From Deferribacteres bacterium (GTDB taxonomy: Bacteria; Chrysiogenota; Deferribacteres; Deferribacterales; Geovibrionaceae): 64,000 nt of DNA. Below, piece by piece: positions 42,443 to 57,267 of this stretch. Position 1 is the stretch's first letter. Every line of letters begins with the position of its first letter. A program made the position numbers and the translations under genes. The notes beneath the pieces were generated by a model. That model worked only from the letters and a program-made list of their open reading frames with translations. It was not told the DNA's origin and did no database searches. The stretch lies in assembly GCA_023395255.1 (NCBI GenBank), contig JAEWZN010000011.1, positions 62,001 to 126,000 on the forward strand. Reading direction: 5' to 3'.

Positions 42443-44080
42443 ATGCGCCTTTCCATCAGGACAGTTCTACTTATCATTATGGCCGCTGTACCCGGCATGA
42501 CGGCAGGTTTCATCGGAATCAAAAACTACTTTTTTTTCAGGCAGATAATGCCCGGCGGCGAAGATAGTACTCATGCACTTGAGCTTGCTTCAACAGGGCT
42601 TACAATCTCAGTCATATGCATTCTCACCACACTTGTTCTCGCATTTGTGATCCCTTTTACGGCATTCAGGCGGGTAAGCAGCGGTGTCCGGGAATTCGGC
42701 CTCACTCTTAAGGCGGCCCTCGGCGGGGATCTTACCAGGAGAGTGCCCATCAACGAATGCACAGGCGAAATGAAGGAACTGGGCATAGGGCTCAACGAAC
42801 TTCTGGATAAGCTGGACAGCACTATCTCAGAGTTTTATCACGCCGCAAACAACATAAGAAGCCTCGCTGACAATCTCTCATCTGTAAACGCCGAAGTAAA
42901 CGGACAGATAAACATCATAAATGACAACGTAAACAACGTCTCCAGCGCCGCAGAAGAGCTCACCTCCACAGGACAGAGCGTTCTTTCCACATGCAAAGTA
43001 TCCTTTGAGCTTGTGGAGGACTGCAGTGAGAGGGTGAAAACCGGCATCGGCATAATCACCAGCAACCGCAAAAGTATGGAAAACATATCCTCAAGCATCT
43101 CCTCAATCTCGGCAGTTGTGGAGGAGTTCCTCAAGCAGTCCGAGAAAATAGAGAATATTGTCGTCTCCATCAAGGAAATAGCAGACCAGACAAACCTTCT
43201 TGCCCTCAACGCCGCAATCGAAGCCGCCAGAGCAGGTGAACACGGCAGAGGCTTCGCAGTTGTTGCAGACGAAGTGCGCAAACTTGCCGGTAAAACCACC
43301 GACTCCACAGAGCAGATAGGCGCGGTTATCAGAGAGCTCCAGTACAAGATAAACGATGTTTTCGGCAAGGTTCAGGAAGGTGTTGAAAATGTTGAGAAAG
43401 GCATAGAGTTTTCCGGAGAATCGGTCAACTCCATCAACATAATAGCAGACAGCATAAACGAACTCACAAGCCAGCTTAACGGCATTGTGCGCGCCATGGA
43501 GGAGGAAAACCTCGCCCTCAGCGAAGTTTCAGGCAGTACAGTGGAAATCTCTGATATGTCCGCCAGCATTCTTCATATGGCTAATGAGTCAGTCATAGCA
43601 GGCGGCAACCTCCTTGACGTAACCAAAGGCCTTGCAGGCAGCGTATCAGGCTTCAAGACATCCGGCGGGGATGAGTTTATTAAATGGTCAACAGCACTTG
43701 AAACAGGTGTACACCAGTTTGATGAGCAGCATAAAAAGCTTGTAGGCATTATAAATAACCTCTACAACGCCATAAGAGAAAACAAAGGCAAACAGATGCT
43801 TGAACGCACCCTTAACGAGCTTGTGGAATACACTGTCTACCACTTTGACTCAGAGGAAAAAGCCTTCCGGGCACACGGCTTTCCCCATAGCGCAAACCAC
43901 ATAAAATCCCACGATAAGCTGAAAGATGCTGTCGGGCAGTTCCTTGAGAACTACAAAAAAGGAAAAGAGGTGATAGGCTTCAATCTGATGAGCTTCCTGC
44001 AGGACTGGCTGAAAAACCATATTATGCATGAGGATAAGGAATACGGCAAACACCTTGCCTCAAAAATGAACAGAAAATAA
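42443..44080 (+). CDS. Methyl-accepting chemotaxis protein with C-terminal hemerythrin domain
   Basis: 545 residues. Two membrane segments (about 7-25 and 52-74) have only a short periplasmic loop between them, so it senses inside the cell. A HAMP-like stretch follows to about 130, then the signalling domain with the conserved tip [20 protein letters not shown] near 245. Residues about 410-545 are a bacteriohemerythrin: [34 protein letters not shown] and HIMHEDKEY supply the His/Glu/Asp ligands of a di-iron O2 site. It is probably an oxygen or redox chemoreceptor like DcrH. A strong terminator follows. Confidence 0.92.
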
Positions 44081-44231: not shown

Positions 44232-44316
44232 GCCGAGGTGGTGGAATTGGTAGACACGCAGGACTAAGGATCCTGTGGGAGTTAATCCTGTGGGGGTTCG
44301 AGTCCCCCCCCCGGCA
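44232..44316 (+). tRNA. tRNA-Leu, anticodon AAG
   Basis: 85 bases with the long variable arm of class II tRNAs. D arm GGTGGAATTGGTAGACAC, anticodon stem CAGGA/TCCTG around the 7-base loop CTAAGGA (anticodon AAG), T arm GGGGG-TTCGAGT-CCCCC. The acceptor stem GCCGAGG / CCCCGGC has an A-C mismatch at pair 5-68. The next bases are CTA, so CCA must be added after transcription. A34 would need conversion to inosine to read CUC and CUA, or else reads mainly CUU. The gene lies 121 bases from the phage block. Confidence 0.88.
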
Positions 44317-44437: not shown

Positions 44438-44722
44438 TTATTCCGAACCTTTCCCGAATCTCGCCTTCACTTCCGCCACGTGACTTTCCCATGTTCCGGC
44501 ATACTGCATATCAAGCTGTTCCTGCCATGAACCATATGCCCCTCTGCGGAGAGCGGCATAATGTCTGATTCGCACTGCCTCAATATCCTCTGCCGAAGGC
44601 TCATAAACGATGTTCCCGTCATCGTCATATGCCGTAAGATGCGCCGCAATTGCCCCGTTTATCTCTTCATCCGTCATTGAGGCCGCAAGGCTCTCAAGCC
44701 ATTTTTCAAAAGCTTCCATCAT
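44438..44722 (-). CDS. Small phage tail-end protein
   Basis: 94 residues. It has no signal peptide. The C-terminal RRGAYGSWQEQLDMQYAGTWESHVAEVKARF resembles the short C-terminal module of many phage tail-fibre-cassette proteins (the pattern YxSxxEQLDMQY...W..HI..VKA); I give only the parts GSWQEQLDMQY and HVAEVKARF as landmarks. It is last in the phage block, directly after the propeller protein, where chaperones or small fibre-associated proteins usually sit. Function unproven. Confidence 0.65.
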   Translation of the reverse strand: MMEAFEKWLESLAASMTDEEINGAIAAHLTAYDDDGNIVYEPSAEDIEAVRIRHYAALRRGAYGSWQEQLDMQYAGTWESHVAEVKARFGKGSE

Positions 44723-44730
44723 CCGCCCCC

Positions 44731-45912
44731 TTAAAGCTTGTTAGTATAAGCGCTCAGCGCCCACCACTGATTACCGTATGCTCCGTATGCGATTCCAAGG
44801 ATTTTAGAATTGGCGAAAGGCATACAGTATATGTTTCCGTTCGGAGCGAGCACTCCGCCGAGCCATTTATTTGTACCCGTGAAATTTCCGATAAGCTCTA
44901 TAGTATTGTCAGAAGGTTCTATAGCAAGTATCTGCGATGCACCGAGAGGAACGCAGTATATCTTTCCGTTCGGTGCGAGTAAAGCGCCTGTCCACTTGCT
45001 TGATTCAGGGAAATTACCCAGAAGCTCCGTTGTGTTTGTCACCGGGTCTATGACAAGGATTTGGGAGTGAGTATAAGGCGCACAGTATATCTTCCCATTG
45101 GGGGCGAGTGCACCGCTCCGCCACCCTATTGCACCATCGTAGCTGCCTATGAATTCCGTTGTGTTACCGGAAGGGTCTATAACTAATATCTGCGATGCAC
45201 CGAAAGGTACGCAGTATATTTTTCCGTTCGGTGCGAGCACCCCGCCGTACCATTTGTTTGCGGTACTGCCTAGGTCGCCTATGAGTTCCGTAGTATGTGT
45301 AGCAGGATCTATGATCAATATCTGTGAAGCAGTCAAAGGAATGCAGTATATCTTCCCGCTTGGTGCGAGTACGGCACCTGCCCATTTGTTTGTGGTTCCT
45401 CCAAAGCTGCCTATTAGCTCTGTAGTGTTTGTTGCTGGATCTATAACGAGAATTTGTGCGTGGTTATAAGGAACGCAGTATATTTTTCCGTTCGGAGCAA
45501 GCACACCGCCGAGCCACTTGTTTGAACCGGAGAAATTGCCCAGAAGCTCCGTTGTATTATCGGAAGGATCTATGACTAATATCTGCGATGCGTTCATAGG
45601 CATACAGTATATCTTCCCATTAGGTGCAAGCACTCCGCCTCCCCATTTTCCTGTTCCGCTCAGATTACCGAACAGCAGTCCGCCGCCCAATGCGCCCGCA
45701 GGATCTATTGATGCGTAACCTTCAAGCGGGTTGGAATACGGCGTACTCCCCGCCGCCGCAACACCCTCCAGATTAACCTTCAGTCTGCCCGACTGACTGT
45801 CAAAAACGAGATTCAGCACCTCATCCTCTGTTTTATATTTTGCCTTAAGACGCTGATCAGCAGAATCAAAAACGCTGTTCAGTATCTCAGCCGATGTTTT
45901 TCTCTTCCCCAT
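44731..45912 (-). CDS. Seven-bladed beta-propeller tail-fibre or receptor-binding protein
   Basis: 393 residues. Residues 1-50 hold two copies of a short LNxVFDSxxxRLK unit seen at the start of phage fibre proteins. Residues about 85-393 contain seven repeats of about 43 residues with the core APNGKIYC, then SQILVIDP and NTTEL(L/I)G. Each repeat fits one four-stranded blade. Variation is concentrated after IYC (MPMNA, VPYNH, IPLTA, VPFGA, APYTH, VPLGA, MPFAN), probably at the propeller surface. No catalytic residues are evident. It likely binds a cell-surface ligand. Confidence 0.75.
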   Translation of the reverse strand: MGKRKTSAEILNSVFDSADQRLKAKYKTEDEVLNLVFDSQSGRLKVNLEGVAAAGSTPYSNPLEGYASIDPAGALGGGLLFGNLSGTGKWGGGVLAPNGKIYCMPMNASQILVIDPSDNTTELLGNFSGSNKWLGGVLAPNGKIYCVPYNHAQILVIDPATNTTELIGSFGGTTNKWAGAVLAPSGKIYCIPLTASQILIIDPATHTTELIGDLGSTANKWYGGVLAPNGKIYCVPFGASQILVIDPSGNTTEFIGSYDGAIGWRSGALAPNGKIYCAPYTHSQILVIDPVTNTTELLGNFPESSKWTGALLAPNGKIYCVPLGASQILAIEPSDNTIELIGNFTGTNKWLGGVLAPNGNIYCMPFANSKILGIAYGAYGNQWWALSAYTNKL

Positions 45913-45923
45913 GCTGTCCCCCC

Positions 45924-46133
45924 TTAAAGCTTCTTTTTAACTTCGCCGAGATCCACCATTCCAAGTGAAGCGGCAACCTCATTCACTATGCGGTCATCGA
46001 TTGTAGTTTTTGTTGAGGCGGCAAGCTCCTTAAGCACCTCGATCACAACCAGAGTAATTATTTTTTCCGTAAGAAAAGCCTTTGCCACACCGAGCATTGC
46101 GCCCGAAAACATCTTAACCAGTATTGGAATCAT
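45924..46133 (-). CDS. Small membrane protein, possible holin
   Basis: 69 residues. A hydrophobic N-terminal half (about 3-35, IPILVKMFSGAMLGVAKAF then ITLVVIEVL) is followed by a charged C-terminal half. Its start overlaps the stop of the endolysin gene (ATGA), and the pairing with an endolysin suggests a holin or a spanin partner. The single membrane segment and size are compatible with class III holins; no sequence signature proves it. Confidence 0.55.
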   Translation of the reverse strand: MIPILVKMFSGAMLGVAKAFLTEKIITLVVIEVLKELAASTKTTIDDRIVNEVAASLGMVDLGEVKKKL

Positions 46134-46558
46134 TTTCCCCCTCCCGCGTGTTTATACGCTTTTTCAAAACTCACATATTCCCCGCCTATCCTGCCCCAGC
46201 GGGCGGAATAGCCCCTTATATCAAGATGGAAGCCCGGCGTGTTCCAGTCTGGATAAATCCCAAGCCCCACATAAGCCGCACTCACCTGCCCCAGAATCTC
46301 TGTCCCGTGCAGTGCTTTGAGAAGGCTGTCCACGGCCTCAGGAAACTTCATCCCTTCGATATGGAAATCCGCGGCATCACCTTTGTAGTGTCTGCTGCCG
46401 GAAGCGTGCCCCCCTTCCTCATAGCCGCAGTGGATTACAAACGGCCTGCCCACCTTCTCCCTGAGCCTGTCAAGGAGCAGGAGCAACGCAGGGTTCATCC
46501 TCTCTGCTTTTCCCCATTTTTCGTTCTCGGTAAAATACTTAAGATTCTTCCATATCAT
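46130..46558 (-). CDS. Peptidase M15 endolysin
   Basis: 142 residues from the ATG at 46558, with GGGGGAGG seven bases upstream; a longer frame lacks that signal. Residues about 55-120 carry the zinc motifs SRHYKGDAADFH (HxxGxxxD) and GFHLDIRG (second His), as in M15A/VanY-like murein endopeptidases. It would cut peptide cross-links for host lysis. It has no signal peptide, so release would need the adjacent membrane protein. It overlaps the preceding gene by 20 bases. Confidence 0.85.
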   Translation of the reverse strand: MIWKNLKYFTENEKWGKAERMNPALLLLLDRLREKVGRPFVIHCGYEEGGHASGSRHYKGDAADFHIEGMKFPEAVDSLLKALHGTEILGQVSAAYVGLGIYPDWNTPGFHLDIRGYSARWGRIGGEYVSFEKAYKHAGGGK

Positions 46559-47552
46559 TACGTCCTCCCCCGTTTTTTGCTTTAATAAGAACAACTTCCA
46601 CTGCCGCAGCACCCATACCGAGATCTACAGTTCCATCTGAGCACGGAAAAACATGCTTTCTCAGCCCTTCCCTGCCGCAGAGATACACCGCAAATCCGCT
46701 GTCCTCCGTCTCTGTTCCGGTTACGCAGGAAGCCAGAAGAAATTCGCCGCCGCTGTTTCTCCCTCCGTAAAATCCGCCGAATGAGCGTATCTTCTCCCCG
46801 CTGTAGACCGGGTAAACAAACCAGTCCTCCCGAAAACGGGCGGTTTCGTCATATTCCGAACCGAAACCGAAGCGGTATGAGCGCTCCACAGTCCACCTGT
46901 CCCCGTCTATGATTGCCTGAGCTGTGTGCTCATAAAAACAAGCGCTGAATCCGGCGTATGCGGACTGGCTGAAAAGGGTGAACCAGCCTCCCCACGTGTC
47001 CAACACGCAGAAATCGTAATATTCGCTGTCTGCTGAAATCAGACCGCCGTTCAGGCTGAATTTGTGCGAGGTTATGCTCAGGCACACATCCTGCTGAACT
47101 TTTTCGGATTCGATTCCATAGCCGCCGCTCTCCGCAAGAGGCTCAACTCTTATATAGCTGTCCTCAAACTCAGCCTCCGTGACAAATTCACCGGGAACTA
47201 TCTCCCCATCATCCGCTATGTACCAGCCCCCCTCAGCCGGGTAAGCCACCCTGTATGTGAAACAGGGCCTTGCCCCTCCTGCAAAGCCGATAACCAGAGG
47301 CACACCGCCGATAAAGCAGACGATAACCTCATCCCCGGCTGTGAATACCCCGCCGGAGCCTTTCACTGAGCCGTCCGGAGAAGCCTCCTCGTCCCCTTTG
47401 CAGCGGTAAAACAGAGGCACACCCTGATAAACTGCCGAGTCCGCATCCACGTCAGCCTTATCCGTCTCTGTATTAACGGAGAGGATCACCCCTTTCCTGA
47501 ACTCAGTGCCTGTGACAGCCTCGCCTATGTTCCGCAGAGGATATTTTTCCAT
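46539..47552 (-). CDS. Phage baseplate/spike-like structural protein with OB-fold N-terminus
   Basis: 337 residues from the ATG at 47552 overlapping the previous stop (GTGATG context; GGAGGGG upstream). Residues about 12-95 show the pattern of gpV/gp45-type OB domains: RKGVILSVNTETDKADV, then AGDEVIVCFIGGVPLVIGFA. The rest is aromatic-rich beta structure I cannot assign. A central spike is plausible because the preceding genes include a hub-like protein, but the C-terminus lacks the usual beta-helix repeats and metal-binding HxH tip. Confidence 0.55.
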   Translation of the reverse strand: MEKYPLRNIGEAVTGTEFRKGVILSVNTETDKADVDADSAVYQGVPLFYRCKGDEEASPDGSVKGSGGVFTAGDEVIVCFIGGVPLVIGFAGGARPCFTYRVAYPAEGGWYIADDGEIVPGEFVTEAEFEDSYIRVEPLAESGGYGIESEKVQQDVCLSITSHKFSLNGGLISADSEYYDFCVLDTWGGWFTLFSQSAYAGFSACFYEHTAQAIIDGDRWTVERSYRFGFGSEYDETARFREDWFVYPVYSGEKIRSFGGFYGGRNSGGEFLLASCVTGTETEDSGFAVYLCGREGLRKHVFPCSDGTVDLGMGAAAVEVVLIKAKNGGGRNDMEES

Positions 47553-48427
47553 CACACCCCTCCGTAAAACCTGAACGGAACGATGATGTCATCCTCATCA
47601 AGGGTGTCCCTTGCGGAAGCCTGAGAAGCCTTGCCTGTGGTCTGCGCATTTCCGTCCAGTCCGTTTTTCACAACTGCCGCCCGCTCGCCGATTAAGAAGC
47701 GGGTGAAATCCGCCGCTTTCAGAGCATAAGGCTGCCCCCTGAACTCCACAGCCCAGCGGAAATCAGAATGGGCAAACCTTTCCGGCTCAAACTCTGTTCC
47801 TTCCCCGCCTTCGTAAAAAGCTCCGTCACGGTAAAGGCCGCATCCGGCAATCACTGCCGATGTCCACACTGATGTCTCGAATACGGACGAACGGTATATG
47901 AACTCCTCAGCACTTCCGGCAAGAGTGAACATCACTGACACGGTTTCCCCCGGAGCAACGCCCGTATCACTGAACATCAGCCTGAAATTTTCGGGGCTTG
48001 AACCCGTGTACTCCGGCACAGTCCGGTTTATCTCCCCTATTCTCCCCGGAGTAATGTAGCTGACAGAGCCTTCGCCCATACGTATCACGTAACCGCCGAA
48101 CCCGCTGAACGCCAGTCGGGGAAAGCTGAAAACAAGCTCCCCCTCCTCCGCGGAATAGCTCAGTGCCCCCTTGCGCAGGGGCGACTTGGCGCATGGCGGG
48201 TTATGCAGGAGAAACTCCTCACTCTCCGTTCCGTCAGAGAGGAGAACAGTCATAGCATCCGCATGGGCTGTGCCGTCCTGATCCATGTACACATCCATAA
48301 ACAGGGGAAAAGCCAGCCCCTGAATCCCGTCCGTATCATCAAACTCAATCCCCGTGCTCCGCCCTTTTACGGTGCAGAGTCCCTCCGGCCGCCAGTTTTC
48401 CCTGCTGAGATATAGGTTCAGTTCCAT
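47552..48427 (-). CDS. Phage structural protein, unknown
   Basis: 291 residues, no recognised family. It is beta-rich, with many Gly, Ser and Phe. An Ala/Lys-rich segment comes near the C-terminus (KNGLDGNAQTTGKASQAS), then a short tail ending VPFRFYGGV. It contains no signal peptide or membrane segment. Starts and stops overlap both neighbours (TAATG with the upstream gene), so it is part of the late tail operon. Its style matches baseplate wedge or adaptor proteins; this is only context. Confidence 0.5.
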   Translation of the reverse strand: MELNLYLSRENWRPEGLCTVKGRSTGIEFDDTDGIQGLAFPLFMDVYMDQDGTAHADAMTVLLSDGTESEEFLLHNPPCAKSPLRKGALSYSAEEGELVFSFPRLAFSGFGGYVIRMGEGSVSYITPGRIGEINRTVPEYTGSSPENFRLMFSDTGVAPGETVSVMFTLAGSAEEFIYRSSVFETSVWTSAVIAGCGLYRDGAFYEGGEGTEFEPERFAHSDFRWAVEFRGQPYALKAADFTRFLIGERAAVVKNGLDGNAQTTGKASQASARDTLDEDDIIVPFRFYGGV

Positions 48428-49143
48428 TATTCGATCCTGAAACTGTCATTTTTAAGATTGTCCTTATCAGTGTCCAGATAGCCGTCCTTGCGCACAAGGA
48501 GGCTGTACTGCCCTTTTTTGAGTCTGCCCAGATTCAGCATTCCGCCGCCGTCTGTCACGCCTCTGAAAGTGCCGTTCATGAAAACCTGCGCATGGGGAAT
48601 AATCTCCCTTGAGGCAGCGTCCCTCGCGGTGAGTATCACCAGACGGGAGGAGAGATCAGTCTCATCCCCTGTGTAGTCGAGTACGCAGTATGCTGCCCCT
48701 TTAACGCTGGAAGCTTTCAGAATCACGTACCGTGCGGAAAACCCTGTGATCTCGATGAGATCATAGGATGTTTCATATTCAACGGAAACGGAGTCCAGCC
48801 TGTTTTCCCGGAACCTCACTGAACGGCCGCCCACAAAGGGGGAAGAGCCGTCCGCCGCGCGGGAAACATTCAGAACCCGCACCACCGGATATTTCAGCCT
48901 GCCTTCGGTCTGATCCGCAAAAGGGATATGCTCCATATGCAGTTCGCTGAGACCGTAAGCTGCATATTTCCACGAACCGCCGGAGACTGTGATCTCCGCA
49001 TTCAGCCCGGCGGGGTATATCCGCACGTATGACTTTTCTCCGGCTGAGTAGAGGCTTTTGTTTCCGCCCCGTTCGTAATCCTCTGTCAGGAGGAGCTCCC
49101 CTTCCCTGCTTTCCGCGCCGAAGCCGACAATGAGTGAACCCAT
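48427..49143 (-). CDS. Phage structural protein with C-terminal carboxypeptidase-regulatory-like domain
   Basis: 238 residues. Residues about 1-90 resemble the neighbouring 167-residue protein (GEKSYVRIYPA, HIPFADQTEGRLKYPV), so the two are paralogues. Residues about 165-235 form a small beta-sandwich of the CarboxypepD_reg/PEGA type (AQVFMNGTFRGVTDGGGMLNLGRL, then GQYSLLVRKDGYLD). Such domains decorate phage fibres and can bind carbohydrate or other proteins. Confidence 0.6.
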   Translation of the reverse strand: MGSLIVGFGAESREGELLLTEDYERGGNKSLYSAGEKSYVRIYPAGLNAEITVSGGSWKYAAYGLSELHMEHIPFADQTEGRLKYPVVRVLNVSRAADGSSPFVGGRSVRFRENRLDSVSVEYETSYDLIEITGFSARYVILKASSVKGAAYCVLDYTGDETDLSSRLVILTARDAASREIIPHAQVFMNGTFRGVTDGGGMLNLGRLKKGQYSLLVRKDGYLDTDKDNLKNDSFRIE

Positions 49144-49146
49144 AAT

Positions 49147-49650
49147 CTATTCCTGAAAAACGTAAATAAGCACGGGGTACTCAGGTCTGCTTTTCTTCGG
49201 AAGTGTTATGCCGAACCTTTTAAAGCCTGATGAATATGTCAGTTCAAGAAGCCCTACACCGCTCTCACCGGCGGCATCCGGCTCAATTTCGCATGAGACC
49301 GAGTACGCGCCGCTTTTCTTAACATTGCCGAGGGATTTCCCAAGCCATACGGAGGAGACTATTTCCCTCACGGGGTATTTCGCCCCTGCCTCGTCTGATT
49401 CGGTGAAGGGAATGAACTCGCCGCTCACGGTTTCCGTGCCCAGTCCGTGCTCGGTGATGGTTCCGTCAGATGAGACAGCCCGCACGGAAGCGGGCAAAGG
49501 GGAGTAAGCCCTGAAATATGCCGTTTCTCCGTAGCGGAAAAACTTCTTCACACTGCCGGAGGAATCAAGATTCATATCTTCATCCAGCTCTATTACCGTT
49601 TTCTCCCCGCCCTTTGCGGGTGTGACAAAACTAACTGTTACCTCAGCCAT
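49147..49650 (-). CDS. Phage structural protein, paralogue of its neighbour
   Basis: 167 residues. GETAYFRAYSPLPASV and EFIPFTESDEAGAKYPVREI align with parts of the 238-residue protein downstream, and KYPV-like motifs recur in the 556-residue protein upstream (ASYPVLRLLN). It consists of beta strands without signal peptide. GGAGGAATAA precedes the ATG. Probably a baseplate or distal-tail subunit; no family recognised. Confidence 0.5.
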   Translation of the reverse strand: MAEVTVSFVTPAKGGEKTVIELDEDMNLDSSGSVKKFFRYGETAYFRAYSPLPASVRAVSSDGTITEHGLGTETVSGEFIPFTESDEAGAKYPVREIVSSVWLGKSLGNVKKSGAYSVSCEIEPDAAGESGVGLLELTYSSGFKRFGITLPKKSRPEYPVLIYVFQE

Positions 49651-51321
49651 TTATTCCTCCCTCAGGTAAAGCTTTGTTTTCTGGATTATCTTCAGCGGGG
49701 CGGATGTTATCTCAACTGATGAGGCAACACAGTACCCCACGCCCGCGGATGTGCGCATCAGAAGCGCATCCCCCGAAGCCGCAGTCGGACTGAAAAGGTG
49801 TGTAACTTCCAGATATGTCCCGCCGCAGAGGCTGAGTTTAAGATTCTGAGCCCTTGCTGCCGCAGCGGGCGGGTCACCTGTCAGCTTCTGCCGGAACTCC
49901 TTTACCGCCGTGCCGGAACCTGCGCAAAAGACGGTTTTCACCGCTTCGGCTTGCAGAACCGCATCCTTCTCAGCCCCTTCATACAGCAGGCAGTCATGCC
50001 GGATGGTTTCATACCTGACATTCCTGACGAAACTGCCTCCGTCATGCACATAAACACTGCGCCCTTCCGCCGCATCCGCTCCGTTTAAGAGTCTGAGAAC
50101 AGGGTAGGAAGCCTTGCCCGCGCCGCCGGAGAAGCGGATTTTTTCTTCATATTCAGTGACCCTGTGCACGGCAGACTTAAAAACTGCCGCATCTGTGCTT
50201 ATATTCACATCCCCGTTCGCATAAACCGATGCGGAGGCAAAATTCCCGTAGGCAGTCTTCTTCGCATCAGGCTCTATCACAGGATCTGCCGAGAAGCCCG
50301 ACACAACCCTGATTCCGCTGTATTTCGGAGGCTCGCAGGTTCTCACCGCTTCAAAAAATGTGCCCGGACGAAGGCTGTTTTCCGCCGAATACGGATTCAC
50401 AACTCGGTTAAACCCGTCCGCACCCATGCGCACCGATGCTCCGCACTCATCAGCAAGCGCCCGCAGAAGCTCAGATTCTGAGAAACTGCCCCTTATCAGC
50501 GGAACAGAGAAATCCGGCACACTCCAGACAGCGCTCCCTGCCAGAGCCGATGCGGATGAATCAGTCCTGAAAACCGTTCTCCTGCCCGCATAGGGCGGTT
50601 CATCCAGAACCCCGGCAGCGCGCCCGCTGATTTTCACCGTGTGTCCGGTTCTCTTTATTTTTTCGATCACAAAAAAATATGAAAAGCCCTCTATGACAAA
50701 TTCCGCCTCTGAACCCTTTTCTGCGGGCTCTGTGACAACAGCGCTGAATGACTGGAAAGGATCTTTGCCGTAAAAACCAATTGCAGCACTTACGAGTTTG
50801 TCTGTAAGCTCCTTTCCGTTCAGCATAAAGCGGAACGAGCACTGAATAATACCTATGTCATCATCTGCTGATGATTTGATAAAAAGCGAACTGCTGAGAG
50901 AGTTTAAGGAGATCTCGCCTCTCAGGGACAGAAATCCGCAAAGGCCGGAATCGCCTATGGTGCTTGCGCTCCTCACCTGCCCCGAAAGCCCTCCGGAAAT
51001 ACTCAGACACGCTTTCAGGAAGCTTCCCGCAGAGACGGCATTTGCCGCTTTCAGGTTTCCCCCAGCAGCGTCAGTCATTGCGCCGGAAAAGATGATCCCG
51101 CCTTTCAGGTCTGTACTGTATGAACATGATACATAACAGTAATCATCCAGTCCGGCAGACTGCGCTATCACGGACAAACCGCCGGAGGACAAAGCCCCTT
51201 TCAGATCTGATGATGACCCGCATCCGGCAGAAAGCCGCAGAGACACCGCGCCGCTTAAGCTCAGGCCGGATGATGAAAAACCGTCTGTTCCGGGAACAAG
51301 CGCCCCCGCCACCCTGTACAT
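49651..51321 (-). CDS. Phage tail hub-like protein (putative)
   Basis: 556 residues. The first 155 are low-complexity, very rich in Ser, Gly and Ala (LSLSGAVSLRLSAG style) with a repeating SGxLSxxGxLS pattern. Residues about 160-420 resemble gp27/gpD-type hub domains: a FxVIEKIKRTGHTVKISGRAA strand pair, a DEPPYAGRR turn and ESELLRALADECGASVR. The last 130 residues share the KYPV module with the two following proteins. The hub would cap the tail tube, yet no tube gene is present. Confidence 0.5.
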   Translation of the reverse strand: MYRVAGALVPGTDGFSSSGLSLSGAVSLRLSAGCGSSSDLKGALSSGGLSVIAQSAGLDDYCYVSCSYSTDLKGGIIFSGAMTDAAGGNLKAANAVSAGSFLKACLSISGGLSGQVRSASTIGDSGLCGFLSLRGEISLNSLSSSLFIKSSADDDIGIIQCSFRFMLNGKELTDKLVSAAIGFYGKDPFQSFSAVVTEPAEKGSEAEFVIEGFSYFFVIEKIKRTGHTVKISGRAAGVLDEPPYAGRRTVFRTDSSASALAGSAVWSVPDFSVPLIRGSFSESELLRALADECGASVRMGADGFNRVVNPYSAENSLRPGTFFEAVRTCEPPKYSGIRVVSGFSADPVIEPDAKKTAYGNFASASVYANGDVNISTDAAVFKSAVHRVTEYEEKIRFSGGAGKASYPVLRLLNGADAAEGRSVYVHDGGSFVRNVRYETIRHDCLLYEGAEKDAVLQAEAVKTVFCAGSGTAVKEFRQKLTGDPPAAAARAQNLKLSLCGGTYLEVTHLFSPTAASGDALLMRTSAGVGYCVASSVEITSAPLKIIQKTKLYLREE

Positions 51322-51324
51322 GGC

Positions 51325-52284
51325 CTAGTCCGTTATCCAGTCAAGGCGGATGAAGTTATCCGCCTCACGTTCCGTTCCTGCGGGTACAATCTCCTTAAGC
51401 CAGAAACCCTTCGCAGCGGCGCGTGTGCTGAACGTGAGCCTGTCCCCCGCCTGCCATGAGCCGCCCCAGCTCTGATGCGGCACGGCGAAATAGAAATCCC
51501 CCGCAGCCGTATTCATAGCCTGATAGTTTGCCGTTATGCTTCCGGAAGGCAGACTGCCTGCCTGCGCACCCGAAACACTGAAAGCGGATGATGAAACAAA
51601 CGTAACTGTCCATTCATCCTCCGCCGCACCGCGGTTGGAAACTATTATCCCGTCCGCACTGAAGGTTCCGCCTGATGACACTGCGCTTACGTTTTCTGCC
51701 TTTGCTTCCAGATTTCCAAGCTCAACGCATACCCCCGCATGGGTTTCTGATGCGGCAAAATTGTCCGGTGCCTGAGAGGCAAGACCTATCAGAGCAACAT
51801 TCCCTGTCCAGTCCGCTCCTGTTATCCTTGCGGTGAACATGCTGCCTGAATCCGCCTTGACCATGAGAAGCGCACCCGCGGGCACAGCGTAGTCGCTGTG
51901 TTCAAAAAGCACCTGAACCGACTCATCCCCCGCTGTGATGTCCGCATACAGCCTTCCGCCGCCTGTCCAGCCTTCCGCGGTGAGTTCCCCTTCGGTCTCC
52001 GCATGGTTCAATGCTGCCTTTATGTAAAACCTGTCCCCCCCGGCACTGGGCACTGTGAGCGCCACAGCCGCATCAAAAGCGGGTTCCGCCCCTGCTGCCC
52101 TGTTGGCGATGTAAGCCTTGCGCAGGCGTGTTTTTCCGTTCGTGCGCTCAAAGGCGGTCACTCTGGGAAAAAGATTGAACTTCACCCCGCTCACAACCTC
52201 CCTTGTTATATCCATATGCCCGCCGTTTTCCGCCGTGTCAGTGACGGTTTTTGAGCGGTAGAATTTTATGTCCCCGGTCTGCAT
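51325..52284 (-). CDS. Phage structural protein of the GDIKFYRS type, unknown
   Basis: 319 residues. The N-terminus MQTGDIKFYRSKTVTDT followed by ENGGHMD and NLFPRVTAFERTNGKTRLRK resembles a family of uncharacterised virion proteins found next to fibre genes in proteobacterial prophages (from memory, no accession). The rest is beta-rich, with SWGGSWQAGDRLTFST near the end. GGGGGAAAT lies before the ATG. Role unknown. Confidence 0.55.
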   Translation of the reverse strand: MQTGDIKFYRSKTVTDTAENGGHMDITREVVSGVKFNLFPRVTAFERTNGKTRLRKAYIANRAAGAEPAFDAAVALTVPSAGGDRFYIKAALNHAETEGELTAEGWTGGGRLYADITAGDESVQVLFEHSDYAVPAGALLMVKADSGSMFTARITGADWTGNVALIGLASQAPDNFAASETHAGVCVELGNLEAKAENVSAVSSGGTFSADGIIVSNRGAAEDEWTVTFVSSSAFSVSGAQAGSLPSGSITANYQAMNTAAGDFYFAVPHQSWGGSWQAGDRLTFSTRAAAKGFWLKEIVPAGTEREADNFIRLDWITD

Positions 52285-52292
52285 ATTTCCCC

Positions 52293-52667
52293 CTAAACTG
52301 TTTTCAGCTTTATTTTTCCGTAAAAGCAGTCCTTCTCCCCGCAGCCGCTTGCAGGGCGGACAGGTCTGAGTTCCAGAGCGGGCGCATCCTCATGACGGAA
52401 GCGGACTCTGAACTCCCTGCCTCTGTGTGAGAACAGATACACCCCGCCAGCAGCGCAGGCGGCATCCTTAAGCTGCTGCGCCTCATACGGGCTGAGCCAT
52501 CCGTCATCCTCTGCGGATTCGAGATCTATGCCGAAGCTCACTCCGGCCTCAGTGAAGACTGCCGATGTTCCGTCCGCGCAGGGAACGGAAACGGCGGAGG
52601 GAAGCCCCGCCGAAAACTCATTTGTCCACACCATTCCCTCAAGCGGTATGCCGCAAAGATAAACCAT
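52293..52667 (-). CDS. Small phage structural protein, unknown
   Basis: 124 residues. It begins MVYLCGIPLEGMVWTNEF, followed by an acidic middle (DLESAEDDGWLSPYEAQQL) and a basic beta-rich end (FRVRFRHEDAPALEL). It has four Cys in the C-terminal half (GCGEKDCFYG region), unusual for a virion protein and possibly metal-binding. It always would lie beside the GDIKFYRS-type protein in the family I recall. Function unknown. Confidence 0.5.
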   Translation of the reverse strand: MVYLCGIPLEGMVWTNEFSAGLPSAVSVPCADGTSAVFTEAGVSFGIDLESAEDDGWLSPYEAQQLKDAACAAGGVYLFSHRGREFRVRFRHEDAPALELRPVRPASGCGEKDCFYGKIKLKTV

Positions 52668-52676
52668 CCCTGCCCC

Positions 52677-53333
52677 CTAAACCGTGTACCAGTCTGTGCC
52701 GTTTGAGATTATCTGCACCCTGTCCCACTGGGCGGAAAGCAGAATATCCGCACTCTGGGTATCTATGAGCTCACCGGAACCGGCGGACACACGCACCGCC
52801 GCTCCGCCCGCATCTATGCGCTTTATCATAAACACCCGTCCTGCATTTGCTGCCGGCGCGGGCAGGGTTATTTTTATGTCTGCTATTCCGGCGTTAACCA
52901 TCACAGCCCTTTCCGCACCTGTCATGGCGTAGTTTGCCGCCTTCACGCTCACAGTGCCGATGCGCTCCGTCTGTGCCGCATTTGCCTTGAGATCTATCTC
53001 GGCCTCAAGCTCGTTCAGCTTCCCGGCGGTTATCACATGGGCTATCCGGCTGCCCGCTGGCCAGTTCCGCTTCTGTGTCTCCTCTTTTCCGCCGTAGCAG
53101 TTAAAGGAGCTTTCATAGCCTTCAAAACCGAAGGGAACCAGTTCAACAATCTCCCGCTCAGGATCATCCAGAGGGGAAGCCGTTCCTCCGCCCCATATCA
53201 CAGCCCTGAAACTGCCTGACTGGGAAAAGCCCGCATAATCCGTGACTGTGAGCTGCGCAGGCTGCACCGTTTGGTTCAGTTCATATGCCAGAGTGCTCAC
53301 GGCGAAGTTGGTATTTTTCAGAACAATTGCCAT
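52677..53333 (-). CDS. Phage fibre/appendage protein
   Basis: 218 residues. Residues about 45-105 match the common phage appendage pattern of ASPLDDPEREIVELV, then KRNWPAGSRIAHVITAGKLNELE, where the aspartate-proline and the WPAG/TAGKLNELE parts are conserved. Residues about 125-218 are a C-terminal beta domain ending WDRVQIISNGTDWYTV, a widespread fibre-tip module. It occupies the place where a Mu-like phage has the sheath gene. Confidence 0.65.
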   Translation of the reverse strand: MAIVLKNTNFAVSTLAYELNQTVQPAQLTVTDYAGFSQSGSFRAVIWGGGTASPLDDPEREIVELVPFGFEGYESSFNCYGGKEETQKRNWPAGSRIAHVITAGKLNELEAEIDLKANAAQTERIGTVSVKAANYAMTGAERAVMVNAGIADIKITLPAPAANAGRVFMIKRIDAGGAAVRVSAGSGELIDTQSADILLSAQWDRVQIISNGTDWYTV

Positions 53334-53337
53334 TTTT

Positions 53338-53718
53338 TTATCCTTTAAGTCTCAGTCTGAAATCTATCCGGCAGAGGTTCGCCCCCTTGCCGGAGGAGAG
53401 GCCGGAAACCCGCCAGAAGGCAGGGGAGAGTTCTCTCAATGCACCAAAAACCGCGTCCAGAACTTCACCCGTTGTTTTCACTGAGTTCTCCCCCCTGCCC
53501 GGAGCAGAGGTTTTAAGAACCACGGAAAAGACCGGTTCACGCCTGAGCGCACTTCCAGAAGGCTGCCCCTCCTCCCCTGTGTAAACCACGGCGGCTCCCG
53601 GTTCCCTCAAAATATCCTCCGCCGCCTTATCAGGCGGCCCGCCGTGGATAAGCACATGCCTGAATATGCCTGTAGCCTCCAGAAGTTCCGCTGTCATCCG
53701 TGCCGTTTCATAAACCAT
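53338..53718 (-). CDS. Tail completion protein, Mu gp37-like
   Basis: 126 residues from the ATG at 53718 (GAGG ten bases upstream); a TTG nine bases earlier is too close to it. It starts MVYETARMTAELLEA and contains the hydrophobic core AAVVYTGEE, the FSVVLKTSAPG strand and a final CRIDFRLRLKG. Size, position after the gp36-like gene and strand pattern fit DUF1834/gp37 joining proteins, which connect neck and tail. Assignment is moderate. Confidence 0.6.
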   Translation of the reverse strand: MVYETARMTAELLEATGIFRHVLIHGGPPDKAAEDILREPGAAVVYTGEEGQPSGSALRREPVFSVVLKTSAPGRGENSVKTTGEVLDAVFGALRELSPAFWRVSGLSSGKGANLCRIDFRLRLKG

Positions 53719-53740
53719 AGTTCCCAAACCTCATCTTTTA

Positions 53741-54085
53741 TCAGTCAAAGCCTTTCCAGCTTTCTTTCCCCTGGGCCGAAGCCGCATCGGGATAAACAGC
53801 AGGGGCGAGAGGCTTAAGCACAAGGACAGCCTCATCACGGTACTGCTCCGCCGTCACCCAGTCCGCCGAGTAGGAATAAAGCTCGCTCAGTGCTGCCTTC
53901 ACCACGGCAAGGCGTATAACGGAGTCGGATTCGTCAAAGTCCACACCGTAGCCCTCTGTTATCCCCTTCACTCTCTCCCTTCCGTTTTCCAGAAAGGTTT
54001 CGGCCACTGCGTCATCCCCGCCTGTTATCGCGTCAAAGTCCTCCGGCTGAATATGCTGTTTCAGTTCGTCAACCGTCAGTTCCAT
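53741..54085 (-). CDS. Head-tail joining protein, Mu gp36-like
   Basis: 114 residues, helical. MELTVDELKQHIQPEDFDAITG, then AETFLENGRERVKGITEGYG and a C-terminal VVKAALSELYSYSADWVTAEQYRDEA with the aromatic signature, fit DUF1320/gp36-type connector proteins. It lies directly downstream of the capsid gene, as in Mu. It supports a myovirus- or siphovirus-type origin. Confidence 0.7.
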   Translation of the reverse strand: MELTVDELKQHIQPEDFDAITGGDDAVAETFLENGRERVKGITEGYGVDFDESDSVIRLAVVKAALSELYSYSADWVTAEQYRDEAVLVLKPLAPAVYPDAASAQGKESWKGFD

Positions 54086-54089
54086 AGCG

Positions 54090-55076
54090 CTATTCCGTTA
54101 CCGTTGCCCAGTTTATTGCCCTTGTGTAAGGCACGGGGAGGGGTTTGCTCTCAGCCACAAGCTCGATTGAGGATGTGCGTTTGTCCTCAACGGGCTTCAC
54201 GAAAAAGGGCATTGAGACAAGGTTGCTGTCCAGATCGTCCAGAACCGCGTAAATGAGTTCAAAGGGAGCATCCATCGCAACAGCGAGGAGCTTTCCGTCA
54301 TCCACCACCTTAACAGGGCTGCCGGTTGCGGGGTCGATGTAGGCGGAGTTCATCAGCTCTATCCTGTAACCGCCGATGAGGATCGATTTTTCATCCATGG
54401 AGGCGATCACATTTCTGCCCTCGAATGCCTGAACAAGCTTGGAAAGAGCCATAAACGCCTTTTTGCCTGCCCAGAACCTTACTCCCTCGCCGTATCTGCT
54501 GGTTTCCTGAATGTCCGCTTCCATTTCGATGAGGGTTTCAAGGATGTCGTCGATCGCAACCTGAGAATGGTCCCAGAGGACTGACGGGGTGTAGGAGAGC
54601 GTGGAGCCGAAGTCCACCTCGTATGTTCCGTAGCCGCCGTCCATAACCATCGGGTAGCTTATTTTTCCGGTGAGGCTCTGAGCGGCCAGTGCCTCGGTGG
54701 AGGCGCGCACAACTCTTCTGAGTCTGTCGATTTTGTTATTGATGAGAAGCTGAACCCCTGTCCTGTCAAGGAGCTTGAAGTTATTAACCTCAACGCCGTT
54801 AAGCCTCTCTGAGGGTCTGAACGGCTGGGGCTCTATGTGGGTTATCTGCCCGGTGTCACCGTAAAGAGGTGTGGGTGCGGAGCCTCTTCTGCTTACCGCT
54901 ATATTTGTTATGGGCTGCTGGAGGTCACTCACCGCAACCGTGGGCAGGGGGTGATTTCTCCTCTTCTCCGTTCTGTAAACCGAGTCAAGAACGGGAGATT
55001 TAAGCTCCGGCATGTCCGTAAGGGTTCTTATCAGCGAATCCCTTGAAAAAAAGCTGCTTATGTCAAACTGAAGCAT
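54090..55076 (-). CDS. Phage major capsid protein, gpE type
   Basis: 328 residues. The N-terminal FDISSFFSRDSLIRTL, the LDSVYRTEKRRNHPLPTV stretch, EPQPFRPSERLNGVEVN and the C-terminal FFVKPVEDKRTSSIELVAESKPLPV are typical of the lambda gpE-like capsid family (Phage_cap_E, HK97 fold). It has AAGGAGG before the ATG. It is expected to form the head shell with the decoration protein next to it. Confidence 0.88.
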   Translation of the reverse strand: MLQFDISSFFSRDSLIRTLTDMPELKSPVLDSVYRTEKRRNHPLPTVAVSDLQQPITNIAVSRRGSAPTPLYGDTGQITHIEPQPFRPSERLNGVEVNNFKLLDRTGVQLLINNKIDRLRRVVRASTEALAAQSLTGKISYPMVMDGGYGTYEVDFGSTLSYTPSVLWDHSQVAIDDILETLIEMEADIQETSRYGEGVRFWAGKKAFMALSKLVQAFEGRNVIASMDEKSILIGGYRIELMNSAYIDPATGSPVKVVDDGKLLAVAMDAPFELIYAVLDDLDSNLVSMPFFVKPVEDKRTSSIELVAESKPLPVPYTRAINWATVTE

Positions 55077-55089
55077 GTTTCAAACCTCC

Positions 55090-55452
55090 TTAAAACGCCC
55101 AGATCTGCGTATTTGTTTCCAGCGCCTTCACCGCAGCCGTTTCAGCCTTGGCGCCGCCGTTTTTCAGTGCACTCCTGATAACCGTTCCGTGCACAAGAAC
55201 ACTTCCGAGGCTGTCCTTGCCCGTATCAACGGTGAAGATGCTCACCCCCACCGGAACAGAGAGCGTGCCTTCGTCCTGTGCGTCATAAAAGTCCGCTCTG
55301 CCGTCAGCATTGAGGGCAAGTATCTCCCCGGCTTCGATTTTTCCGTTGTCCGCCTTAAAAGGCATTACCTTCACCACCGCAGGGTGGCGGCCGTCAATTA
55401 TTCCGGCGGAACCCATGTCACGCCTGTCGATTACTCCGTCAAACTTTGCCAT
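55090..55452 (-). CDS. Head decoration protein, gpD type
   Basis: 120 residues. DRRDMGSAGIIDGRHPAVV, then IEAGEILALNADGRADFYD, PVGVSIFTVDT and VLVHGTVIRSAL follow the lambda gpD/HDPD beta pattern. It would stabilise the expanded capsid. It lies between the scaffold gene and the capsid gene, and AAGGAGGGG precedes the ATG. Confidence 0.8.
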   Translation of the reverse strand: MAKFDGVIDRRDMGSAGIIDGRHPAVVKVMPFKADNGKIEAGEILALNADGRADFYDAQDEGTLSVPVGVSIFTVDTGKDSLGSVLVHGTVIRSALKNGGAKAETAAVKALETNTQIWAF

Positions 55453-55464
55453 CTTCTCCCCTCC

Positions 55465-56148
55465 TTAAATTTTTCCGAAAATTCCCTTCGGCTCTGCCGA
55501 AACGCCCCTTTCGGGCAGGCTCATTTTTCCCGCCTTCACAGGCTCCGGCAGGGATGAAAAAACATCCTTCAGCACACTCACCGCGTCCGCCTCGTGACCG
55601 TCTGCGAAGTTCACAGTACCTTCAAGGTTTTCCGCAAACTCCATCACAAGCTCCAGCTTGGCGGCGGGGATTTTCCCCTCGCATGCGCATCTGAGATCGC
55701 TGAGTTTTTTCTCCCTCTTTTCCCTGCGGAGTGCTTCAAGCTCGCTGAAATAAGCGGGTATGGCTCCTGCAAAGGTCAGGAAATCGCCGCTGTCCCCCAT
55801 CTCCACAACCTCAAGGCCGCGTATCTTAGGCGGCAGAGCGCCCAGAAACGCAAGGTGGTGCAGGTAAAGCCTGCCGTCTGCGTCCCTCTTTGCGCCTATT
55901 GACCAGTTGCGGTATTCCCCCTTTTCATAGGCTTCCATGAGCCAGTCCCCCAGCTCCGCCTCCCCCATGAGAACCCCTTTTTCCGCCCAGATATTTTTCA
56001 CCCATCCGGCGGCGGGCATATTTCCGGCTATCTCGTGCCCCACAGTTACGGGCACTTTACCGCCGAAGCTTTTCTCCATCTGCTCCAGATCCGCCTCGGT
56101 AAGGGTCACCTCGCCGTATCTGCCTGTTTTAGCCATTTCAAGAATCAT
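55465..56148 (-). CDS. Capsid scaffold/protease, Mu gpI-like
   Basis: 227 residues from the ATG at 56148, six bases after AAGGAGG; an upstream in-frame extension lacks such a site. KTGRYGEVTLTEADLEQMEKSFGG at the start is shown here in parts (GRYGEVTLTEADLEQM), with VPVTVGHEI, PAAGWVKNIW and LMEAYEKGEYRNWSIGAKRD carrying the family's conserved His and Ser positions. A charged C-terminal scaffold tail follows (EALRREKREKKLSDL). First gene of the phage block; no promoter is obvious. Confidence 0.75.
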   Translation of the reverse strand: MILEMAKTGRYGEVTLTEADLEQMEKSFGGKVPVTVGHEIAGNMPAAGWVKNIWAEKGVLMGEAELGDWLMEAYEKGEYRNWSIGAKRDADGRLYLHHLAFLGALPPKIRGLEVVEMGDSGDFLTFAGAIPAYFSELEALRREKREKKLSDLRCACEGKIPAAKLELVMEFAENLEGTVNFADGHEADAVSVLKDVFSSLPEPVKAGKMSLPERGVSAEPKGIFGKI

Positions 56149-56201
56149 CACATTCCTCCTTAGCCGATGAGGGAATATAAACATTTAACAAACAATACTT
56201 G

Positions 56202-56235
56202 TTACAGCGTGTAATAATTACAGAAATTAACTGTA
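56202..56235. promoter_or_regulatory. Two phased palindromes upstream of the phage block
   Basis: TTACA-GCG-TGTAA (56202-56214) and TACAG-N7-CTGTA (56219-56235) have centres 19 bases apart, nearly two helical turns. They lie between the phage operon (minus) and a TPR lipoprotein gene (plus), where they could repress either. No phage repressor gene is in the window. Confidence 0.5.
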
Positions 56236-56310: not shown

Positions 56311-57267
56311 ATGAGACTTTATATATTGATCACGGCGGCAGCCCTTGCAGCATGTGCGCCAAAAGCCGCTGTTGAGTTTAAGAAAAACGGACAGGAAGCC
56401 CTCGCATCCGGCAATGCCGCTCTGGCTGCGGGGTATTTTGAAAAAGCCGTGCAGGAGCACGATTCCGGCGAAAACAGAACCTTATTGGGAGATGCCTACT
56501 TTGCCATGAAGGAATATGACAAAGCCTTTTATGAATACACCAGAGCACTGGGCAGAAATAAAAACACCCCCTACCTGCACTACAGAAGAGGGGAAATCCT
56601 TTTCTTACTCGGAAAATACAATGACGCTGTCATGGAACTTGATGAAGCGCTGACTCAGAAACCGAAGACCTATGCACGGGCAAATACCCTGACAGGCCTT
56701 GCATATGCCGAACTTGGGAACACCAGACAGGCATTCTTCTACCTGAACAGAGGAATAGAAGCTCAGGGCGAAAGTGCTGAGGCTTACCTCGGCAGGGCAA
56801 AAGCATATATGAAATCCGGAAGCCCCGAACAGGCCATAGTGGACGTGACCCGCGCCATACAGATTGACCCTAAAAATGCCGAAAGCTACTTCCTGCGGGC
56901 GCAGGTGCTCTTTGCTGTTTCAAAAACCGGTGACGGAATCAGGGATCTGGAAACGGCAATTATTCTGGATCATACTATGGAAAAAGCCTTTTCTCAGGCT
57001 GCATGGGTTCTCTCCACCCACCCTGACCCCTATTTCAGGAACGGGGCAAAGGCTGTGCTCTACGGACGCAAGGCCTACGCACTGAAACCGGATAACGAAA
57101 ACGCAATCAGGCTTGCCGCCGCTTATGCGGAAAATGACGAATTTGACAAAGCTGTCTCAGTCATTGATGAACAAATCTCCGGGGAAAAGGATCTTGTGGA
57201 GGTGGACGGACTCAGGGTCTGGAAGGAAATGTACGGCAAGGGAATAAAATACAGACGAGATAAATAG
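56311..57267 (+). CDS. TPR-repeat lipoprotein
   Basis: 318 residues. A short signal peptide ends in LAAC (Cys about 15), giving a lipoprotein. About eight TPR units follow, for example GQEALASGNAALAAGYFEKA, DAYFAMKEYDKAFYEYTRAL, HYRRGEILFLLGKYNDAVMEL and AKAYMKSGSPEQAIVDVTRA. It probably scaffolds an outer-membrane or periplasmic complex (PilF/NlpI style). GGAG precedes the ATG. The phage block lies immediately upstream on the other strand. Confidence 0.85.
   Translation: MRLYILITAAALAACAPKAAVEFKKNGQEALASGNAALAAGYFEKAVQEHDSGENRTLLGDAYFAMKEYDKAFYEYTRALGRNKNTPYLHYRRGEILFLLGKYNDAVMELDEALTQKPKTYARANTLTGLAYAELGNTRQAFFYLNRGIEAQGESAEAYLGRAKAYMKSGSPEQAIVDVTRAIQIDPKNAESYFLRAQVLFAVSKTGDGIRDLETAIILDHTMEKAFSQAAWVLSTHPDPYFRNGAKAVLYGRKAYALKPDNENAIRLAAAYAENDEFDKAVSVIDEQISGEKDLVEVDGLRVWKEMYGKGIKYRRDK

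Follow-up and report, generated by a model that had tools for sequence, protein, structure and literature searches.

Among the genes conserved across the Geovibrionaceae there is a tight run of phage-like genes which, with a probability of roughly 0.8, belongs to a gene transfer agent (GTA) split over several loci, of which it would be the operon for head, tail tip and lysis. In the window analysed here (the whole stretch of DNA, 64,000 nucleotides), this block spans positions 44438-56148 on the minus strand and comprises 17 ORFs, all with open frames. The anatomy is regarded as that of a GTA because the loci are co-inherited, apparently co-regulated and split, while particle production, the packaging of host DNA, its delivery and the activity of the promoter are the parts of this reading that we infer. 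In the definition found in PMC9662315, GTAs consist of caudoviricetes-derived proteins, are endogenized (often at multiple loci) and mostly vertically inherited in co-diversification with their hosts, encapsidate mostly random host DNA, cannot fully package their own genome and deliver DNA to other cells. The proteins described here are caudoviricetes-derived and endogenized, with two loci in all 12 Geovibrionaceae genomes searched (G numbers below denote searched genomes) and, in the two larger genera (g3 and g4), a third locus in 7 of 8 genomes.

Gene content of the block

A sequence-only reading of this stretch had described tightly ordered minus-strand genes with intact frames and no marks of decay, which holds for all the ORFs, although it counted 15 genes instead of 17. 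It had also listed terminase, portal, sheath, tube, tape measure, transposase, integrase and repressor as missing, and none of them has a significant match among the 17 ORFs in PHROGs or Pfam, the weak ones being to a portal (phrog_209, 0.26, in a 129 aa ORF), a tube (PF04985, 0.044, in g319) and a regulator (PF06892, 0.078, in a 69 aa ORF). The Mu-like gene order that it proposed is retained at the capsid end only; elsewhere the order is that of siphoviruses, as seen by comparison with the Vibrio siphophages PG28 and SIO-2 and with the IMG/VR contig 3300028030_000027 (L066, compared over 21.2 of its 42.9 kb). L066 presents the same succession of protease, decoration, capsid, adaptor, terminator, g124, g319, hub, g167, g238, g291 and g338, but differs in having neck, tube (phrog_807), chaperone and tape measure ahead of g124. 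In PG28 and SIO-2 (genomes of 81-83 kb), the homologues of g124 and g319 are adjacent and directly behind the tape measure, and the stretches compared have no match to the head-gene profiles of the block. The features, with the genomes that contain them out of the 12, are the following:

56311..57267, plus strand: divergent TPR gene adjoining the block (TPR Pfam matches; 12/12)
56174..56212, minus strand: promoter-like motif ACAYNNNRTAACAA-N19-TATATT, common to the terS operon of same-genus kin genomes
55465..56148, minus strand: head maturation protease (phrog_976, 5.4e-24; 12/12)
55090..55452, minus strand: head decoration protein (phrog_49, 1.8e-8; 12/12)
54090..55076, minus strand: major capsid protein, Phage_cap_E (PF03864, 8e-49; 12/12, 62-100% identity; dN/dS 0.031 to G003)
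53741..54085, minus strand: head-tail adaptor-like protein (assigned from its position and its L066 homologue, 6.2e-25; 12/12)
53338..53727, minus strand: tail terminator-like protein (by position; L066 homologue, 2.4e-15; 5/12 by blastp)
52677..53333, minus strand: tail fibre or tip protein (phrog_6427, 2e-9; phrog_8469 tail fibre, 0.0024; 11/12)
52293..52667, minus strand: g124, siphoviral gene placed after the tape measure (phrog_4408, 4.9e-14; 10/12)
51325..52284, minus strand: g319, tail-tip protein (residues 108-188 similar to a beta domain seen in distal tail proteins)
49651..51321, minus strand: g556, central hub of gp27/Mu gp44 type according to AlphaFold and Foldseek (12/12)
49147..49650, minus strand: g167, tail-tip protein (phrog_24905, 1.1e-6; 12/12)
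48427..49143, minus strand: g238, tail-tip protein (phrog_24905, 0.011; 12/12)
47552..48427, minus strand: g291, conserved, with no significant family match (L066 homologue, 1.7e-16; 12/12)
46539..47555, minus strand: g338, conserved, with no significant family match (L066 homologue, 1.6e-13; 7/12)
46130..46612, minus strand: M15 peptidase endolysin (phrog_894, 3.4e-11; PF08291, 4.1e-5; 4/12, G001-G004)
45924..46133, minus strand: holin-like protein of 69 aa (putative role, from position and size)
44731..45912, minus strand: propeller-like fibre, candidate receptor binder (10/12)
44438..44722, minus strand: ORF of 94 aa, perhaps a fibre chaperone by position (phrog_9114, 1.9e-7, function unknown; 2/12)

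The protease ORF opens at 56184, but its conserved start is the ATG at 56148, downstream of the -10-like box and a ribosome site. The place of the terminator is occupied in G006, G007 and G009 by ORFs of 117-123 aa, and the tail fibre or tip gene (52677..53333) sits where L066 has its tube and tape measure. The tail-tip proteins g167 and g238 are related, since their two profiles cross-match. The hub-like protein of the sequence-only reading is borne out by the AlphaFold model of g556 (confident in residues 161-556, not in residues 1-160), for which Foldseek found the baseplate of phage 7-7-1 as best match (1.8e-12), followed by Mu gp44 (6.7e-9) and T4 gp27 (2.3e-5), so that, at the level of the model, its assignment as a phage central hub of the gp27/Mu gp44 type holds. 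In a sequence search of the PDB, g319 had no match, and the capsid and g556 had weak ones only. The propeller-like fibre combines a conserved N-terminal anchor with a variable repeat part (a 132 bp repeat; lengths of 291-699 aa), and the dS of its gene to G001 is 1.03, compared with 0.02-0.17 for 15 other block genes, a local divergence as expected of a receptor binder, for which this protein is the candidate. Regarding a possible old attachment site, the tRNA-Leu at 44232 was discarded, since it adjoins the block in only two of the 12 kin stretches (G001 and G003), and the single 12-base repeat found is located inside g319.

Descent, packaging island and common motif

A comparison of conservation and dN/dS across related genomes, which had been proposed as a check on the sequence-only reading, revealed a family-wide block under purifying selection. 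Nine block genes are present in all 12 Geovibrionaceae genomes searched, from four genera, and one intact capsid gene is found in each of them, whereas only one of the 38 other genomes of the phylum (50 searched in all) gave a capsid match; this one (G040) belongs to a separate, unrelated myovirus-type prophage. The block has been mostly vertically inherited and has co-diversified with its hosts: the tree of 12 concatenated genes from the head and packaging loci correlates with that of lon, the one host gene used as reference, with r 0.981 and 8 of 9 splits in common, the odd lon split having a support of 0.409, and single-gene trees agree on 5-9 of the 9 splits. Between the window and G003, dN/dS ranges from 0.031 to 0.209 over the 17 block genes (0.032 for lon), and among the packaging genes of G001-G003 it is 0.044 for terL and the portal and 0.139 for terS, while the dS of the block is similar to that of neighbouring housekeeping genes. 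As individual irregularities, a foreign-looking ORF lies within the block of G006, and the terminase match of G008 contains a stop.

The packaging genes, said to be missing, are indeed missing from the block but not from the genome, at least in the kin of the window, where a second conserved locus outside the corresponding stretch encodes them. This separate island (TerS-TerL-Mu-type portal) was found in 12/12 Geovibrionaceae genomes, each with one PF03237 terminase, and its portal matches PF06074 (1e-88) and phrog_38 (5e-128). It is located 30-38 kb from the head genes in G001-G004, about 12.5 kb from them in g4 and on other contigs in g3; by analogy with the nearest kin, the island of the window's own genome probably lies beyond the window's end, around 30 kb from the capsid gene, which going by G001 would place it near 83-86 kb in window numbering. 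The TerL motifs are conserved. The N-terminus of TerS matches phrog_1206 (5.7e-7 in G001, 9.9e-6 in G006); a small terminase without a DNA-binding domain is given as a common GTA property in PMC11841831. A lysozyme gene preceded by the motif forms the third locus in the two larger genera and is accompanied in 6 of its 7 genomes by a holin-like gene, homologous to that of the 69 aa protein of the block (profile matches of 4.8e-12 to 8e-16).

In three of the four genera, the head operon and the packaging operon are preceded by matching promoter-like motifs, by which both loci are apparently co-regulated. It has one match in the window, with no mismatch (mean of 0.01 in shuffles), and exactly two such sites per genome in G001-G003, of the window's genus, at the head block and terS. 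These two operons account for all 6 zero-mismatch sites; none has one mismatch, and the 8 remaining sites carry two (3 in the reversed control). In g3 and g4, 16 of the 26 exact sites of their motif are at head, packaging or lysozyme loci and 10 are elsewhere (reversed control, 3); at one mismatch, four additional lysozyme sites appear within a total of 57, versus 16 in the control. In Limisalsivibrio (G004), no site with up to two mismatches was found at terS.

The undetected tail tube and the competing readings

Of the two hallmarks of a Mu-like phage, the contractile sheath (PF04984) was found in none of the 12 genomes and the transposase was not found among the 17 block ORFs. Neither is this a complete siphovirus prophage: packaging is apart, a GTA-type tube was found only in G004, no shared tape measure was found and there is no integrase among the block ORFs. 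Tape measures (PF10145) exceed the cut-off in G001, G004 and G012, not family-wide, and were taken for those of accessory prophages rather than the block's own; six weak matches were dismissed as chemoreceptor-like by sequence. The tape measure of L066 as query matched in G001 and G012 only, and 9 of the 12 genomes yielded no tape measure in either search. The absence of tube and tape measure from the block, as the sequence-only reading had it, seems correct except for one species, Limisalsivibrio, where a GTA-type tail-tube gene is in place. With its tube protein and phrog_807 as queries, no GTA-type tube was found in the other 11 genomes: the phrog_807 matches in G001 and G012 are longer ORFs near their PF10145 tape measures, and a weak one in G011 sits among housekeeping genes. 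Tube, tape-measure, neck and chaperone profiles, searched over 184 loci (1.43 Mb including overlaps; loci, not whole genomes), yielded the GTA-type tube in G004 only; other tube matches, in G012 and G004 loci, are ORFs of 479-481 aa and were rejected, the tape-measure matches are the G001 copy already found with the L066 query, and the one neck match is weak (0.024). Single-sequence searches may nevertheless miss diverged genes, as blastp did with the terminator (detected in 5/12 genomes), and a tube might therefore be hidden.

According to the GTA reading, a siphovirus-type prophage would have been fixed in the ancestor of the family (there is no mobility gene in the block) and would now be split into two loci, or three in two of the genera, which a common promoter would switch on together. 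Capsids would assemble with the prohead protease and the Mu-type portal and be filled with DNA by the TerS and TerL that the second locus encodes, and the hub, tip and propeller-fibre set would be joined to them; the endolysin and the holin-like protein would free the particles, which would bind sister cells and pass the DNA on. What is the minimum tail that a DNA-transfer particle needs? The missing tube raises this question, and one answer, tentative and somewhat below even odds, is a GTA with neither tail tube nor tape measure, in which the hub and tip of a siphovirus ancestor would dock directly on the neck of portal, adaptor and terminator, so that siphovirus parts would make up a podovirus-like particle. 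Limisalsivibrio, with its tube gene still in place, would then be an intermediate.

The domesticated particle was the best-fitting of the options in the sequence-only reading, and a variant without gene transfer, i.e., a capsid particle for killing, DNA export or altruistic lysis, is the strongest competitor, albeit an improbable one. In its favour, no tube or family-wide tape measure was found in 11 of the 12 genomes, which makes the mechanics of DNA delivery doubtful, and TerS retains its phage-like N-terminus; however, TerL, portal and capsid rank with the genes under the tightest constraint, and the adaptor, the hub and a diversifying fibre have been kept, which argues for DNA-filled, cell-binding particles. 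A satellite or helper-dependent element borrowing the tail of another phage would account for the missing tube and for the accessory-prophage-like tape measures of G001, G004 and G012, but is very unlikely, as it does not fit vertical inheritance, and as the system has its own terminase and portal, no integrase among the block ORFs and, in 9 of the 12 genomes, no tape measure found by either search. A decaying prophage is hardly credible and the suggested recent large deletion is refuted, because the packaging-less block sits in 12/12 genomes of four genera, its frames are intact in the window, its dN/dS values stay well under 1 and separate loci carry matching motifs, in spite of the tube and tape-measure genes absent from their expected place and the foreign-looking ORF in G006.

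Known GTAs and phage relatives

To our knowledge, no earlier GTA is known in the phylum Deferribacterota, and none is reported for it in the titles and abstract starts of the papers retrieved from the open PMC library. If true, the present reading would add a further GTA origin, in this phylum, to the few GTAs with a known genetic basis, which the abstract of PMC9662315 assigns to three groups. The discovery of GTAs is described in PMC11841831 as hampered by split loci and by their likeness to dead prophages; co-inheritance plus a common motif joining separate loci offers a detection route that requires no known GTA as bait, the motif pointing to a regulon. By description, the system resembles the RcGTA type (Rhodogtaviriformidae) in that structural genes of phage origin are inherited vertically as a cluster, with accessory loci at other sites (PMC9662315, PMC11841831), and differs from it in its Phage_cap_E capsid, its Mu-type portal, its packaging genes apart from the head genes, the lack of a detected tube or shared tape measure and its phylum. 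Also by description, Brachyspira VSH-1/BhGTA is similar as a divided-genome GTA outside proteobacteria (PMC9662315), although the particles of VSH-1 and their gene transfer are reported to have been demonstrated, whereas the Geovibrionaceae system is known from genes alone. The capsid had no match among phage records and none was confirmed in a scan of IMG/VR; that scan missed at least one, the capsid homologue (1.8e-82) encoded by L066, a contig found through g319.

The block across the Geovibrionaceae

The phage-like block at 44438-56148 is a trait of the whole family Geovibrionaceae. Its capsid gene is present as a single intact copy in all 12 family genomes and in 0/27 genomes from other families of the same order, and a capsid profile run over 50 genomes of the phylum matched 12/12 within the family and 1/38 outside. 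That one outside match (G040, loci L141-L142) is a separate myovirus-type prophage whose Phage_cap_E capsid is related to the block's (2.2e-80). An ORF scan of the window gives 17 ORFs, all intact and on the minus strand, so that the sequence-only reading was right about intactness and strand and too low in counting 15 genes. Apart from fibre-like, tip-like, M15 endolysin and propeller-like proteins, profile matches name the following:

Minus strand, head protease (phrog_976 profile); conserved start at the ATG at 56148
Minus strand, decoration protein (phrog_49 profile)
Minus strand, capsid, Phage_cap_E (PF03864, 8e-49)
Minus strand, g124 (phrog_4408 profile)

A longer protease ORF (to 56184) overlaps the -10-like box of a motif at 56174-56212. 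When the 12 genomes were searched by blastp with the window proteins as queries, the protease, decoration protein, capsid, adaptor and the ORFs g319, g556, g167, g238 and g291 were found in 12/12, the fibre in 11, g124 and the propeller in 10 each, g338 in 7, the terminator in 5, the endolysin and the holin-like gene in 4 and a 94 aa ORF in 2. Two other genera of the family are called g3 (G005, G007, G009, G011 and G012) and g4 (G006, G008 and G010). A divergent TPR gene lies beside the block in 12/12 genomes; in the g3 and g4 genomes read (L020:17043-19669, L022:17177-19916, L019:656-3244), two genes come behind it, one a small HTH gene and the other a subtilase, with PF00082 matched in L019 and L022.

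Packaging, lysis and a shared promoter-like motif

Each of the 12 family genomes encodes one PF03237 terminase, in an island of three genes: a small terminase (TerS) that retains a phage-like N-terminus, a large one (TerL; phrog_38, 5e-128) and a Mu-type portal (PF06074, 1e-88). In 11 or more of the 12 rows, TerL conserves a Walker A-like motif as well as acidic residues in its nuclease part. Terminase and capsid genes are 30-31 kb apart in the window's genus (g1, G001-G003), 38 kb in Limisalsivibrio (g2, G004) and about 12.5 kb in g4, and lie on different contigs in g3; judging from these kin, the window's own genome is expected to hold its island beyond the window's end. The terL of G008 (L045) has one in-frame TGA within the terminase match and, because lon of the same genome likewise contains a stop, an assembly error is possible. 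The portal of g1/g2 has a gene for a small, exported-looking protein next to it (L038:7389-7718); in G006 such a gene lies between the two loci (L019:21-359).

Reading the sequences upstream of the protease and terS revealed an element common to both loci: TTAAACATAT-N17-TANNNT in g3 and g4, with variants in letters or spacer seen by eye (G009 protease, G011 and G012 terS), and ACAYNNNRTAACAA-N19-TATATT in g1. It is a guess that both represent one element. Without mismatches, the g1 motif occurs at exactly two sites in each of G001, G002 and G003, those of the protease and terS operons, and the 8 other sites in the three genomes together have two mismatches each (reversed control, 3); the 64-kb window holds a single occurrence. 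In G004 the head site has one mismatch, and no g1-motif site was found at terS. As for the g3/g4 motif, 26 exact sites were found in 8 genomes (reversed control, 3): 13 belong to head or packaging loci, 3 to a third locus in g4, and 10 lie elsewhere, five of which were inspected and showed no phage-like genes. Allowing one mismatch gives 57 sites (reversed control, 16). In matching places of G010 (L200:7540-7683) and G006 (L201:7009-7152), a 47 aa protein, ribbon-helix-helix-like by eye, directly follows a one-mismatch copy.

The third locus of g4, behind the exact motif (3 sites), pairs a phage lysozyme (PF00959) with a holin-like gene. Four g3 genomes have a lysozyme at another chromosomal place behind a one-mismatch motif, with a holin-like gene beside it in three and none detected in G005; the motif search gave no lysis site in G009. 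The enzyme differs, being an M15 peptidase in g1/g2 and a lysozyme in g3/g4. The lysis function thus belongs to the block in g1 and g2 but is elsewhere in g3 and g4, where its locus appears, by this motif, to share the switch of the head and packaging loci.

Descent, selection and the missing tube

Block and packaging island have descended vertically, with lon as the sole host gene compared: a tree built on 12 genes of the two loci matches that of lon (distance correlation 0.981, 8/9 splits common, support of the odd lon split 0.409), and in single-gene trees between 5 and 9 of the 9 splits recur (r 0.90-0.98). Between the window and G003 (Geovibrio thiophilus), the 17 block genes have dN/dS values from 0.031 to 0.209 (lon, 0.032); between G001 and G003 it is 0.044 for terL and portal and 0.139 for terS. 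Window and G001 show a dS of 0.02-0.17 in 15 block genes, similar to lon (0.07); two genes depart from this, the propeller with 1.03 and the 94 aa ORF with 0.38, as if that end of the block had been exchanged.

In Vibrio siphophages, homologues of g124 and g319 come after the tape measure. The IMG/VR phage contig 3300028030_000027 (L066) is collinear with the block's head and tip genes and, like the block, has adaptor and terminator between capsid and g124, but that stretch also holds genes for neck (phrog_26), tube (phrog_807), chaperone (phrog_1442) and tape measure, as well as a 426 aa ORF with no assigned function. In Limisalsivibrio a gene for the tube (phrog_807, 1.7e-19) lies between those for terminator and fibre; it was not found in the other 11 family genomes, and neither a sheath nor a family-wide tape measure was found among the 12. 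The model of g556 is that of a hub of the gp27/Mu gp44 type, and one domain of g319 resembles that of distal tail proteins, which a capsule lyase outranks among the matches; tip and hub therefore remain. There are two possibilities for the tube: its gene lies at another site, lacking the g1 motif and so far unrecognised, or the particle is built with no tube at all.

A predicted gene transfer agent

The best reading of gene content and motifs is a gene transfer agent. Of the six features by which PMC9662315 defines such agents, three were tested and all three found; together with the counterpoints, this is why the label "predicted gene transfer agent" is used. Against it stand the phage-like N-terminus of TerS, the lack of a tube, the absence of the terS motif in G004, the G008 terminase stop and, in G006, a 466 aa ORF between g238 and g291 (L019:13105-14505), which has no homologues in the other loci compared and is probably an insertion in one genome's block. 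Under the gene transfer agent reading, head, packaging and lysis loci would be switched on together, TerL/TerS would fill capsids via the portal, tip and fibre would be added, and lysis would free particles, which would bind sister cells.

A possible control layer is offered by candidate regulators, all HTH genes:

L038:5528-6957, near the packaging island in g1; both genes with weak S24-peptidase matches, below Pfam's cut-off
L041:4916-6403, near the packaging island in g2; such a match in the second gene
L019:19131-19952, related double-HTH gene near the head block of G006, without an S24 match

SOS control of the loci is a guess. At 42443-44080 the window encodes a chemoreceptor-like protein whose C-terminus resembles, by eye, a bacteriohemerythrin domain.
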